A stretch of 24,454 bases of DNA from the IMG/VR virus record IMGVR_UViG_3300020195_000161, positions 1-24,454 of that record; one strand, written 5' to 3'. The notes beneath the pieces were generated by a model. It made no database searches and was not told where the DNA came from. It saw only the letters and a list, made by a program, of their open reading frames with translations. Shown here one piece after another: positions 3,453 through 8,619 of the stretch. Made by a program: the position numbers and the translations under genes. Position 1 is the first letter of the stretch; the number at the start of each line of letters is the position of its first letter. The DNA comes from a virus.

Positions 3453-3851
3453 GTGAGTAGAATCAGCGACGCTACAGGTATCAATATAGATGTAGCCGGT
3501 CCAAATCAGATAGACATTGGCGGCGGTCAAGTTGATTTCTTAGGTCAGTTGCATGATGTGGTTGGTGGTTTGTTTGAAAGTTATATGAAATGGCCTGGAA
3601 TCCAAGCTTTAAAAGAAGGCTGGAATGAAGCTTCAAACTTTAATAAAGACCGCGAGAAGACCTACGAAAACAAAGTTAAAGCTGATGAACAATCGGCCAG
3701 ACAAAAACTAATTGACGATGGTAATAAGAGAAAAGCTCTCCTTGATGAGATGGCAAGTCTTGCGGCAGTCGGCGGTCGTGGTAGATGGAATCAATTCTCA
3801 ACAATGTTCTCCGGTGACCAACAAGGCGAAAAAGATTTGTTGGGCGTATAA
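3453..3851 (+). CDS. Small conserved-type phage protein between terL and portal
   Basis: A 132-residue protein. The N-terminal third is Gly/Asp-rich, the middle (about 60-100) is charged and probably a coiled coil, and the C-terminus runs RGRWNQFSTMFSGDQQGEKD then LLGV. That tail resembles the R-x-R-x-STILTG-x-x-G...KTLLG ending I associate with small proteins found beside portal genes in many podoviruses; their function is not established. GTG start with GGGGG 4 bases upstream. Its stop overlaps the portal ATG (TAATG at 3849-3853), so the two are translationally coupled. Confidence 0.75.
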   Translation: MSRISDATGINIDVAGPNQIDIGGGQVDFLGQLHDVVGGLFESYMKWPGIQALKEGWNEASNFNKDREKTYENKVKADEQSARQKLIDDGNKRKALLDEMASLAAVGGRGRWNQFSTMFSGDQQGEKDLLGV

Positions 3852-5581
3852 TGCAACTTGAATCTTATAAGCGTAAAGACTGCGAGTTTTTAAGATCACA
3901 AGCCAAGTCTAAGTTTGACCCTTGTCGATCGACTTGGATTGATCTTTTACGTTGGGCACTTCCTCATCGTGGTAAATGGCTTCAATCGCAAAATGAAGGC
4001 GAGCGAAATAACCAACACATCGTTGATCCAACTCATGTTCTAGCACTTCGTTCATACGTTGCAGGATTTCTTGAAGGTAATACTTCAGCAACCAGGCCGT
4101 GGTATCGCACCGGAACAGCCGATAAAGAATTAAATATACGACCAAAGAACAAAGAGTGGTTAGATCTCTATACAAATCAAACGCTTAAAACACTTCAATC
4201 AGGTAATTTCTATCACGCAGCCGGTGAGTTTTATTACGACTATGGTGTTGTAAATACCGGTTCGTATTACATCGAGGAGCGCGATAACAATACGCTTTTC
4301 TGGCACGTTTTAATTCCAGGCTCTTACTACGTGATCAATAATGCGTATGGTGATGCGATGATCATGGTTCGTGAAATGTCTTTGAGTGTTAAAGCACTCG
4401 TTGATCTTTTCGGTAAAAAGAAAAACGGTAAGTGGGACTGGTCGAATTTTTCATCAAACGTGCGTAAAATGTATGAGGATGGTAACTACTCGACGAACAT
4501 CGATATAGTTTGTATCTATAAAGAGAATCCTGATTATGACGTAAATAAATCGATCGGTGGAAAAAATCGCAAGTGGATCAAGCTTTCTTACGAATCTAGT
4601 GCTGGAAATGCGCCATACTACTCCGTTGAATCGTCAGGAATGGGTAGCGTCAGTCAAGAAGACGGAGAGAAATATCTTTCAGTCAGTTACTCAAAACGTA
4701 AGCCATTCATTGTGGGTAAGTCACATAGTTCAGGTAATTTCGAGTGGGGTGAAAAAGGTCCTACGATCGATGCGCTTGGATTAATTAAATCACTCAATAA
4801 AAAAGCAATCGGTAAAGACCAAGCTCTCGAGCAAATGCTCAGACCCGCAATGCAGGGTCCAGCGTCATTAAAAAAATCATACATGACCACGGCACCCAAT
4901 TCATACGTGCCACTTGATCCACATTCACTAACCCAAAAAGGTTTACGGCCTATTTTTGAAATGAATCCTGGCATTGGCCCTTTAATTCAAGATGTCGAAG
5001 ACATGCGCCAACAAGTTGATCGACTTTATTATGCTGATTACCTTTTATATTTAAGTCGAAATCCAAAGACTCGAACTGCCACTGAAACTCAAGCGATCGT
5101 TCAAGAGCAACAACTCATCATCGGTCCCAACCTTCAGAGTCTCAATTGGACACATAACGTACCAGTGGTCGAGTTTGTAATGGATTACGTTCTCGACAAC
5201 GATCCGAACTTACCGCCACCACCAGATGATTTGGCCGGACAGTTTCTAAGACCTGAATTTATATCGGTTTTCGCGCAAGCACAAAGAGCTGCGGATTTAC
5301 CGAATATTGACCGATACATTGAACGAATGATGAACATCGGTCAGATTGATCCGCGCATGTTCGATAAAGTAAATCTTGACCGGTTGGCCGATCTTTATGA
5401 GGATCGGTTGTATTTACCTGCGGGATTGAATCGTGAGCAGTCGAAAGTGGATGCGATGAGAGCACAGGCTCAAGCACAAGCACAGAGACAGCAACAGATG
5501 GAACAGCTCGCTCAGGCAGCCGGTGCTGCAAAAGATTTAGGTATGCAAGCAAAACAAGGGGATAAAAATGAAAAGCGTTAA
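3851..5581 (+). CDS. Portal protein (head-to-tail connector)
   Basis: Forms the ring at one capsid vertex through which DNA enters and leaves and onto which the tail is built. The 576-residue product matches the podovirus head-tail connector family (T7 gp8-like, Pfam Head-tail_con): LRSYVAGFLEGNTSATRPWY at 66-85 corresponds to the family's LAAGL..LTSP.RPWF signature, followed by the NFYHAAGEFYYDYGVVNTGS region and a PGSYYV strand. The C-terminal 44 residues are Gln/Ala-rich (AQAQAQAQRQQQMEQLAQAA) and probably helical, as expected for a barrel or crown. Start ATG overlaps the previous stop. The last 14 bp overlap the next gene. Confidence 0.92.
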   Translation: MQLESYKRKDCEFLRSQAKSKFDPCRSTWIDLLRWALPHRGKWLQSQNEGERNNQHIVDPTHVLALRSYVAGFLEGNTSATRPWYRTGTADKELNIRPKNKEWLDLYTNQTLKTLQSGNFYHAAGEFYYDYGVVNTGSYYIEERDNNTLFWHVLIPGSYYVINNAYGDAMIMVREMSLSVKALVDLFGKKKNGKWDWSNFSSNVRKMYEDGNYSTNIDIVCIYKENPDYDVNKSIGGKNRKWIKLSYESSAGNAPYYSVESSGMGSVSQEDGEKYLSVSYSKRKPFIVGKSHSSGNFEWGEKGPTIDALGLIKSLNKKAIGKDQALEQMLRPAMQGPASLKKSYMTTAPNSYVPLDPHSLTQKGLRPIFEMNPGIGPLIQDVEDMRQQVDRLYYADYLLYLSRNPKTRTATETQAIVQEQQLIIGPNLQSLNWTHNVPVVEFVMDYVLDNDPNLPPPPDDLAGQFLRPEFISVFAQAQRAADLPNIDRYIERMMNIGQIDPRMFDKVNLDRLADLYEDRLYLPAGLNREQSKVDAMRAQAQAQAQRQQQMEQLAQAAGAAKDLGMQAKQGDKNEKR

Positions 5582-6527
5582 GAAAATGATCGTGTTTTTT
5601 GTTGTTCTACTGATAAGCACAATCGGCTATGCCGGTTTTCAGGGCTTTAGTGGTGCGACAAATCTAAAGATTTTCCAATCGATTAAATGCTCAACAGGTT
5701 TGACCTGTACTCGCGAAGGCGACAAGCTTTTGATGACATCGAGTCCGACACTCGCGGGCACTATAGTGGTTCAAGGCGCTGAAGGTGCTGCGGGTATCTT
5801 AAAACTGGAAGCCGATGAGTCAGATGACAATGCGGATGACTGGCAAATCTCATCTCTTTCAACTGGAACTTTCGTAGTTCAAACCGGCGCATCAGGTACA
5901 GCCGTAGATTTAACCACATGGACCAGCACAGGAGACGTTGCTTTTGGTGGAACAACTCCGTATGTGACAGTCGGTGATGCTGGTGCTGAAGATCATGGTA
6001 TCGCATTCGATGGTCACTCAGGTGGTATCGATTTCAATATTTCAAATGATGACTCAGTTGATCTTTTGGTCATAGGTGTCGGAACCGCAGCAGGTACAAC
6101 GGATGCAATCCGAATTGATGCCAACCAAATTGTTACTTTCGTTCAAGAAGTTGTAGGACTTGGAACAGATACGCTTTCTGGTTTTTTGCAAAAACAAACT
6201 GCAAGCACAACAGTATCTTTAACCGCCGTACAATGCGGACAAACCATCGTATCAAACAGCACAGACGTTGCTACATTGCCTGAAGCTTCGACGGTTCTCG
6301 GATGCCGATATACTTTCGTATGTGGAACCGCTGATGACTTCGACGTTAATCCAGCCGATGGTACTGACGTAATTGGAGTCGCAACATCATCAGGTGCAAC
6401 GATTACTCCTTCTGCTGGCGATGCAGTTCGCTGCACTGACCTCGGATCTAGCTTTACACTCGAAGCTGTTGGAGCGAATCTTTGGGCGTTTATTTCTCAT
6501 AACGGTGTTATTACAGACGTAAATTAA
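5568..6527 (+). CDS. Secreted beta-rich protein encoded within the head operon
   Basis: A 319-residue protein with a textbook export signal: Lys at 2, 5 and 6, a hydrophobic core at 7-19, and a likely cut after GYA at residue 22. The mature part is rich in Gly, Thr, Asp and Ala with short beta-like repeats, resembling phage fibre or adhesin segments. It has exactly six cysteines (41, 47, 223, 246, 252, 289), including the C-x5-C motif CSTGLTC, which suggests disulfides and so a location outside the cytoplasm. The ATG overlaps the portal gene by 14 bp and has a strong site, AAGGGG at 5556-5561. I do not recognise a named family. Virion proteins of podoviruses normally lack signal peptides, so it may be exported to the host surface rather than assembled into the virion. 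Confidence 0.85.
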   Translation: MKSVKKMIVFFVVLLISTIGYAGFQGFSGATNLKIFQSIKCSTGLTCTREGDKLLMTSSPTLAGTIVVQGAEGAAGILKLEADESDDNADDWQISSLSTGTFVVQTGASGTAVDLTTWTSTGDVAFGGTTPYVTVGDAGAEDHGIAFDGHSGGIDFNISNDDSVDLLVIGVGTAAGTTDAIRIDANQIVTFVQEVVGLGTDTLSGFLQKQTASTTVSLTAVQCGQTIVSNSTDVATLPEASTVLGCRYTFVCGTADDFDVNPADGTDVIGVATSSGATITPSAGDAVRCTDLGSSFTLEAVGANLWAFISHNGVITDVN

Positions 6528-6833
6528 TTGGATAGAGAATTAACGCAAGAAGAAATTCAAGAGAGGCTTGAGCACAGAGATGTGCTCTTAGCTATTCGTG
6601 AGATCTTAACAACACAATCAGGTCAGATTTTCTTCAAGTATCTCTTTAAGTATTTTGAAATAGGAGTGTTGCCGCCTGTTGGAATGGAAGGTAACATCTT
6701 ATCTGATAATCTTGGATTTTTACGTGCTGGAGTTGCGATATTTGATCTTGCATCAGAAGCAAATCCACACTTGTCTGCCACTTTTTTAGCAGACATTAAA
6801 AAGGAGAAGTATGAGCGGTTACGAAGAGAATAA
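6528..6833 (+). CDS. Bbp19-like structural protein (tentative)
   Basis: A 101-residue, mostly helical protein. It has a charged start (DRELTQEEIQERLEHR), then TTQSGQIFFKYLFKYFEIG at about 29-47 and a later GFLRAGVAIFDL segment. The pattern of a G-x-x-FF-x-LF core followed by a helix reaching the C-terminus resembles the Bbp19 family found near scaffold genes of BPP-1-type podoviruses. The start is a TTG directly after the preceding stop (TAA-TTG) with no clear ribosome site, so re-initiation is likely; a GTG at 6582 is an alternative but would remove 18 residues. It overlaps the scaffold gene by 23 bp. Exact function unknown; head assembly is inferred from position. Confidence 0.7.
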   Translation: MDRELTQEEIQERLEHRDVLLAIREILTTQSGQIFFKYLFKYFEIGVLPPVGMEGNILSDNLGFLRAGVAIFDLASEANPHLSATFLADIKKEKYERLRRE

Positions 6834-7584
6834 ACCTGAAACCCCTAAAGCTCCGGTGTCTGAACCACCGAAGAGTGAAGCGCCTGTAGAGTCAAAAGGG
6901 GTTGATGATGGGTTGGATGAATTCGGCTACGAAAAGGTCAAAGCAGAAAAACCTGTTGAGGATAAACCTGTTGAAAAACCGGTTACAACCAAAGCCGAAG
7001 AACCAGTTACCGAATCCAGCGGATACTCTAAAGAACCGACCAAAGTCGAAGAACCTAAAGTAGAGACACCGGCTTCCGATAAGAAGGCAGCAGAGACTCC
7101 TTCAGATGAATTTGAGATTAAAGAACCCGGTGAGTTATCAGTTGAAGAAGTGAAACAACTCAAAGCGTTTATGAAAGAAAATAAAGTACCAAAAGAAATC
7201 GCCGAGGCTTTAGTCAAACAACGAAAAGCTGAAATGACAGAGTTTAAAGAATTGGTTGAGAAACAAAAGAAGCTTAAAGAAACCAATGAACTTAAACAAC
7301 GACGTGAATGGTACGAAGAATTAAAAAATGACCCAGACTTTGGCAAAGATAAATTCGATCACAATATCAAGAGAGTAGACAAAGTGCTTGCTGATTTCTT
7401 ACCGAATCTAAAAAAGAAGTTGACAGAAGGTAAGGCAATGTTGCCTCCTTATGTCATGCGAGATTTGGTCAAGTTAGGTAATCACCTCTATTCAACTGAA
7501 GGGTTGGTCGAGGGGAATCCACCCACTAAACCAGACGATAACAAAGGTGATTCTATAAATGATCCTTTGGCATATTACTCTTAA
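6811..7584 (+). CDS. Scaffolding protein
   Basis: Temporary internal core that guides the capsid protein into a closed shell. At 257 residues it fits podovirus scaffolds and has their character: very hydrophilic, no cysteine, a disordered Pro/Glu/Lys/Val N-terminal half with KPVE-type repeats (about 46-95), then a long helical, Lys/Glu-rich segment (about 105-180) and a short ordered C-terminus ending DPLAYYS, where scaffolds usually contact the coat. It lies immediately before the major capsid gene. A strong AAGGAG at 6801-6806 supports the ATG. Assignment rests on composition and position, since scaffold sequences are poorly conserved. Confidence 0.85.
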   Translation: MSGYEENKPETPKAPVSEPPKSEAPVESKGVDDGLDEFGYEKVKAEKPVEDKPVEKPVTTKAEEPVTESSGYSKEPTKVEEPKVETPASDKKAAETPSDEFEIKEPGELSVEEVKQLKAFMKENKVPKEIAEALVKQRKAEMTEFKELVEKQKKLKETNELKQRREWYEELKNDPDFGKDKFDHNIKRVDKVLADFLPNLKKKLTEGKAMLPPYVMRDLVKLGNHLYSTEGLVEGNPPTKPDDNKGDSINDPLAYYS

Positions 7585-7596
7585 AGGAGAATTTCA

Positions 7597-8619
7597 ATGG
7601 CTCTTCTCGGATCAACACTAGTTACAATGGCCGATGTTGCGAAAAGCAAAAATAAAGAAATCGGCAAAGTAGCTGAAGTTCTTGTTCAGCACAATAAGGC
7701 GCTGAATGACATCCCATATATGGAGATGAACGAGGGTACTCGACACATAGAAGAAATTCGATCGGCGCTCCCTGCGGTTTATTATCGTAAAGCTAACCAA
7801 GCAATTCCAGCTTCTAAAACAACGACTGAAGAACGCACCTTTACGGCTGCTCACTTCGAGTCGAAGTCGCAGATTGACCAAGCGGTCGCATCACGAGGCG
7901 GCGCGGATCGCGTTGCTTATAATCGTTGGAATCAAGCGCAAGGTCACATCCAAGCTCACGCGATTGAACATGCAGACTTGATGTTCTACGGATCGCCGGT
8001 TGATGACGCACGAAAAGTTGCAGGTTTCGCAGATATTTTCTCAACCCTCGCAACGAGTGAACCTACCTCTGCACAAATTCTCGATGCAGGTGGAACCACT
8101 TCAGACAACACATCAATTTATCTTGTCCTCTGGGGCGAGCGTTCAGTTTTCGGCATTTATCCAAAAGGTACACAATCAGGTTTGAAGCGCACCGATCGTT
8201 CAAAAGGCGGTCAGTTAGTTCAAATCAATGCTCTCGATTCAGCCGGTAACGCTGGAAACTTCTGGGGCTATGAAGAACAATTTGAACTCGATCACGGTTT
8301 GGTAGTGAAGGATTACCGTCAAGTCGTTCGTATCGCGAATATCGATCCAGCTCTTTTGATTCTAGGTACAGGTCCAGATTTGATTGAGTTGATGGCGAAG
8401 GCACTTTACACCGTTGATTCAATGGAAAACGGAACCCCTGTTTTCTACATGAACCGCACGATCGAAGCTTGGCTAGATCTTCAGTCATTAGGTAAAGTCG
8501 GCGCTGGTGGTGGAGTGACTTACGAAAATTATCAAGGTTCACCAGTCCTGAGTTTCCGCAAGACTCCTTGCCGACGCATGGATACTCTTGTGAACACTGA
8601 AGACCGAATCACAACGTAA
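7597..8619 (+). CDS. Major capsid protein
   Basis: Builds the icosahedral head. The 340-residue sequence matches the podovirus capsid family with the HK97 fold: an N-terminal LVTMADVAKSKNKEIGKVAE, then MEMNEGTRHIEEIRSALPAV at 42-61, the HADLMFYGSP loop at 125-134, ILDAGGTTSDNTSIYLVLWG at 161-180, GIYPKGTQSGL at 186-196 and VVRIANID at 243-250. All of these are recognisable blocks of that family. Start ATG has a strong AAGGAG at 7584-7589, overlapping the scaffold stop, as expected for the most abundant protein. An intrinsic terminator follows directly. Confidence 0.94.
   Translation: MALLGSTLVTMADVAKSKNKEIGKVAEVLVQHNKALNDIPYMEMNEGTRHIEEIRSALPAVYYRKANQAIPASKTTTEERTFTAAHFESKSQIDQAVASRGGADRVAYNRWNQAQGHIQAHAIEHADLMFYGSPVDDARKVAGFADIFSTLATSEPTSAQILDAGGTTSDNTSIYLVLWGERSVFGIYPKGTQSGLKRTDRSKGGQLVQINALDSAGNAGNFWGYEEQFELDHGLVVKDYRQVVRIANIDPALLILGTGPDLIELMAKALYTVDSMENGTPVFYMNRTIEAWLDLQSLGKVGAGGGVTYENYQGSPVLSFRKTPCRRMDTLVNTEDRITT

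Follow-up and report, generated by a model that had tools for sequence, protein, structure and literature searches.

The window, which is the whole 24,454-base virus record analysed here, has its late genes arranged head-first, in an operon of the epsilon15/BPP-1 type. The small and large terminase genes are followed by the genes encoding the portal, the protein studied here (ORF 5568-6527), a protein of 101 aa, a scaffold/protease-type protein and a GP7-family capsid protein, and then by genes for a cement protein weakly resembling Bbp16, for the tail and for an internal protein of 2028 aa. ORF 5568-6527 (5568..6527, + strand; 319 aa and a stop codon) encodes a spike/fibre-like protein predicted to be exported. 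Its upstream neighbour is the portal or head-tail connector gene (3851..5581, + strand; PF12236, E=5e-76; phrog_332). The overlap of the two genes claimed in the original prediction was confirmed with exact coordinates and amounts to 14 nt, and a Shine-Dalgarno-like AAGGGG (5556..5561, + strand) lies within the portal 3' end, 6 nt ahead of the ATG.

The gene had also been described as preceding the scaffold gene. It does lie upstream of the scaffold-type gene, but not directly, since the small conserved 101-aa gene (6528..6833, + strand) intervenes; this gene, which occupies the position of epsilon15 gp5 and BPP-1 Bbp19, marks the end of what is called below the portal-to-scaffold slot. The scaffold/protease-type gene itself (6811..7584, + strand) stands at the position of epsilon15 gp6. 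It matches a PHROG family named protease (phrog_458) and its sequence resembles an acidic helical scaffold; its counterparts in epsilon15 and BPP-1 are likewise annotated as proteases. The major capsid protein of the GP7 family is encoded at 7597..8619 on the + strand (PF20911, E=1e-84).

Signal peptide and its conservation

The N-terminus of the ORF 5568-6527 product, MKSVKKMIVFFVVLLISTIGYA^GF, reads as a textbook cleavable Sec signal peptide (residues 1-22; 5568..5633, + strand), with lysines at positions 2, 5 and 6, a hydrophobic run and G-Y-A^G at the cut. This n-h-c arrangement has small residues at -3 and -1, namely Gly and Ala in the window and A-x-A in many relatives. The clear signal peptide of the original prediction was thus recovered by a rule-based finder, which places the signal peptidase I (SPase I) cut after residue 22 (GYA^GF), in agreement with the alignment, and which matched no other of the 18 window genes. 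All signal peptide calls reported here were made with this finder. It was positive for 40 of 42 family members and for none of the control proteins in four sets (86 portals, 63 scaffolds, 72 TerL and the TTB proteins); its matches in 11 of 32 tail-tubular-A and 5 of 55 MCP sequences were treated as false positives. A lipobox, with Cys at +1, is absent from the protein (GYA^GFQG, with no Cys near the cut), and no outer-membrane beta-barrel was seen in it.

Relatives were collected from a first search (28) and, in far larger number, through portal-based and C-domain-based scans; the alignment of the N-terminal module was too variable for a scan of the collection. A signal peptide was called by rule in 60 of the 62 distinct IMG/VR ORFs sharing the C-terminal domain. 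One exception (L029) has a signal-like N-terminus without K/R and so misses the rule. Homologues lacking the hydrophobic N-terminus, which the original prediction had named as evidence against export, came down to the other exception (L149), the only ORF with the C-domain and no signal peptide, which is very remote and also lacks the paired cysteines. Moreover, when an HMM limited to the mature N-terminal module, and so blind to the signal, was used, every ORF retrieved had a signal, with L029 once more failing the rule; in the alignment the SPase I motif is conserved immediately ahead of the mature module.

No family for this protein was found in Pfam, PHROG or NCBIfam, and a RicinB_lectin identity was dismissed on account of weak matches below cut-off. 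No genuine homologue from a cultured phage was obtained when three family proteins were searched by tblastn against 50,697 phage records, where the matches were weak ones to fibre repeats; nor did a remote signal-less relative used as a query give any.

Modular architecture, cysteines and predicted fold

Three parts could be recognised in the mature protein. The N-terminal module (5634..5741, + strand; GFxGxxGxTxLxIFNxIxCSTGLTCTxxGxKLxM), defined by alignment and by the mature-part HMM, contains Cys41 and Cys47. It is followed by a variable, fibre-repeat-like middle (5742..6194, + strand), which weakly matches a fibre-like ORF of cyanophage P-TIM68 and has low AF2 confidence at residues 107-151, and by a conserved C-terminal beta domain (6198..6524, + strand) holding the cysteine pairs 223/246 and 252/289. 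In the epsilon15-like lineage the signal and the GFxGxxGxTxLxIFNxIxCSTGLTC module are kept, and exchange affects the middle and the C-terminal part (L046, L052, L055, L059-L061, L111). Other phages have the C-terminal domain, often at 60-70% identity, joined to any of about ten unrelated N-terminal modules, and each of these brings its own signal peptide; the module classes were assigned by eye, a first clustering having over-linked them through the shared linker. The N- and C-parts are thus swapped independently of each other. A conserved N-terminus with an exchanged C-terminus is the pattern of fibres and spikes. In two relatives (L143:5326-6297 and L146:5275-6237) the signal peptide is followed by what appears by eye to be a DUF2190-type, capsid-cement-like domain and then by the spike-like C-domain.

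The six cysteines expected in the predicted exported part were all found there (41, 47, 223, 246, 252 and 289), and the fibre, scaffold, giant protein and others of the window have none. Among 61 C-domains, Cys223 and Cys246 are both present in 49, both absent in 6 and single in 4, and the corresponding figures for Cys252 and Cys289 are 30, 27 and 1. The number of cysteines in the mature chain is even in 51 of 57 cases. A FastTree phylogeny that leaves out the cysteine columns puts the changes at 223 and 246 on a shared branch in 3 of 4 events, and each of the 3 changes at 252 is accompanied by one at 289. Coincidences across pairs number 0-1; the only one is in L143, with a joint appearance of 246 and 289. 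As judged by eye, Cys41 and Cys47 co-occur wherever the A-type module occurs and are both gone in the L121 and L144 variants. Such paired gain and loss is the behaviour expected of disulfides, and it is what an oxidising compartment would select.

Structure prediction and structure search, which had been proposed as a check, were run on the protein. The AF2 model is confident for the C-domain (pLDDT 88.8 when modelled alone), in the 80s for the N-module and poor for the middle, and its beta content agrees with the fibre-like composition noted originally. The nearest solved structure is the capsid spike of Pseudomonas phage Pa223 (PDB 9NY6; LUZ24 gp49), which was the top PDB match both for the whole model (E 2.5e-6) and for the C-domain (E 2.7e-4, TM 0.61, Foldseek probability 1.00). 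The same chain was independently top in a sequence profile search, as a weak and partial match (E 0.26). The Pa223 spike differs in having no signal peptide and another N-terminal part, and in the location of its gene, at the distant end of the block of structural genes. Next among the C-domain matches were folds of the CBA120 TSP4 (N-terminal region) and T4 gp10 types, which belong to non-exported tail and baseplate proteins, and the predicted fold would therefore mark a virion fibre rather than a capsid protein alone. The modelled C-domain has a spike-type fold, and full-length sequence homology to a known spike was not found beyond the marginal profile match; membership in the capsid spikes is not claimed.

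The portal-to-scaffold slot and other neighbourhoods

The portal-to-scaffold slot serves as a cargo site in the epsilon15-like lineage. Epsilon15 itself and Vibrio 1.185.O have nothing there, and most close relatives carry the present spike-like family. The same slot, from the portal to the Bbp19-like gene, is taken in Limnohabitans phage DC33 and phage zth2-2 by fibre-like genes whose N-terminus is conserved and whose C-termini differ, as in the family of ORF 5568-6527; they differ from it in sequence and in lacking a signal. More distant contigs have decoration-like or fibre-like signal-less genes there. The statement in the original prediction that head proteins should not be exported is thus less clear-cut than it was put, because signal-less fibre genes share this slot in relatives. 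With other capsid types too, the family gene has scaffold, MCP or portal genes as neighbours. It comes after the capsid gene in L013, is placed between the scaffold and capsid genes in L121 and is found just downstream of HK97-type head genes in L124, L143 and L145. The exceptions outside the head cluster are L127, where it stands beside an endolysin and a fibre gene, and L134, where it is near a helicase gene.

Several other arrangements were observed in this region. A long signal-less decoration-like cassette (115, 135, 288, 293 and 260 aa) occupies the slot at L074:6713-10043 and similarly in L085, L103 and L105. Four different signal-peptide proteins (193, 158, 221 and 428 aa) are encoded in the slot at L080:4472-7851; the first of these looks by eye like the decoration-like domain found without a signal in L063, L067 and L106, here bearing one. 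In L016 (5465-5956), and likewise in L014, a second, unrelated signal-peptide protein of 163 aa is encoded between the portal and the spike gene, and in L019 (6786-7313) an HNH-endonuclease-like gene (175 aa) lies directly behind the spike gene. Phage DC33 (L155; PQ492659.1) is assigned to the Inoviridae in GenBank, yet it has a 39-kb genome with an epsilon15/BPP-1-like portal region and is probably misclassified.

Possible function of the putatively exported protein

The product of ORF 5568-6527 most likely leaves the host cytoplasm, because it combines a genuine export signal with cysteine pairs. The signal peptide found throughout the family and the joint loss and gain of cysteines strongly support this part of the original prediction. 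The opposite reading, that of a head fibre or internal protein of the usual cytoplasmic kind with its hydrophobic N-terminus left uncut, would agree with the signal-less fibre-like genes in the same slot of relatives and with the signal-less Pa223 spike. It is nevertheless very unlikely, considering that the SPase I motif is conserved right ahead of the mature module, that a signal is kept across about ten unrelated N-module contexts and that the cysteines are paired. Export is unusual for a head-operon product and suggests either a spike that virions acquire externally or a protein that blocks the host surface.

The reading we put first, at a probability of roughly 40%, is that of a capsid-spike-type fibre which is exported, oxidised in the periplasm, freed at lysis and docked on heads. 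An accessory spike or fibre protein of the capsid-spike type would have been moved to the Sec route. It would be expressed late from the head operon, exported and processed by signal peptidase I at the site behind residue 22, and its pairs 223-246, 252-289 and probably 41-47 would be oxidised in the periplasm. After being freed together with the virions at lysis, it may dock through its N-terminal module on the outside of finished heads, at or after lysis, with the swappable C-terminal part acting as the putative adhesin. Outer decoration proteins are by nature able to bind finished capsids externally, so docking at or after lysis would join all the lines of evidence. Among the three functions originally suggested (blocking further infection, coating the host, or joining virions at or after lysis), the slot, the gene neighbours and the predicted fold favour the last. 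Against docking counts the dilution of material at lysis, and disulfides could also form after release; against a role on the capsid count the marginal sequence similarity to the Pa223 spike, the occurrence of the fold in tail and baseplate proteins and the L127 and L134 genes outside the head cluster.

The evidence from export and disulfides would fit equally well a receptor mask that stays in the periplasm or outer membrane and binds the phage's own receptor, stopping superinfection or the sticking of progeny to debris, and swapping of the C-terminal domain would suit changing receptors. There is a precedent in Llp of phage T5, a small acylated lipoprotein which binds FhuA and, as a phage protein exported to the host periplasm (as is predicted here), also prevents adsorption to lysed fragments (PMC9586334). 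We consider a mask the chief alternative, though less likely than docking. Llp is the product of an early gene, whereas ORF 5568-6527 lies in a late-type operon; the protein shows neither the lipobox nor the outer-membrane beta-barrel sought in it; its C-domain has a virion spike fold; and a mask leaves unexplained why, in several capsid lineages, the slot and its surroundings belong to head genes. Head genes as the usual neighbours also speak against another periplasmic or extracellular role, such as coating of host or debris or lysis timing, which is improbable. Such a role would find some support in the L127 gene adjoining an endolysin and in the existence of late phage proteins with cleavable signal peptides, such as the antiholin RI, the lysis regulator of the lytic phage T4 (PMC8385771). 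The signal peptide of RI is alike, but neither RI nor spanins have such a large, modular and swappable fibre architecture.

Lysogenic conversion by a moron gene, expressed from a prophage and altering the host surface, was rejected as the main reading and is the least credible of the alternatives. Morons of the lambda type with signal peptides do sit in late operons, and an integrase is present in the L024 and L121 records. However, these are only two of the 13 long records, and the absence of an integrase from the other 11, including all seven with the capsid type of the window, argues against conversion; in addition, no match was obtained when bacterial genome contigs were scanned for the family.

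Spikes and exported phage proteins are both already known. The dispensable fibre gp8.5 of phi29, for example, sits on the outside of the head (PMC9965433) and differs from the present protein in being cytoplasmic. The literature searched for exported virion proteins gave no precedent, and a head-operon spike-type protein with a conserved signal peptide and predicted disulfides has no counterpart in the databases or literature searched.

To our knowledge, tailed-phage virions are regarded as assembling entirely in the cytoplasm. It is a tentative proposal, and a slightly more doubtful one than docking itself, that a virion component built through the host Sec and disulfide machinery and mounted on heads at lysis has emerged in uncultivated tailed phages alongside several types of capsid. 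A widespread modular spike-like family which keeps its signal peptide and disulfide pairs and exchanges all else, beside the head genes of several capsid lineages, would mean either that virion assembly takes place in two compartments or that a large class of exported receptor masks has gone unnoticed.
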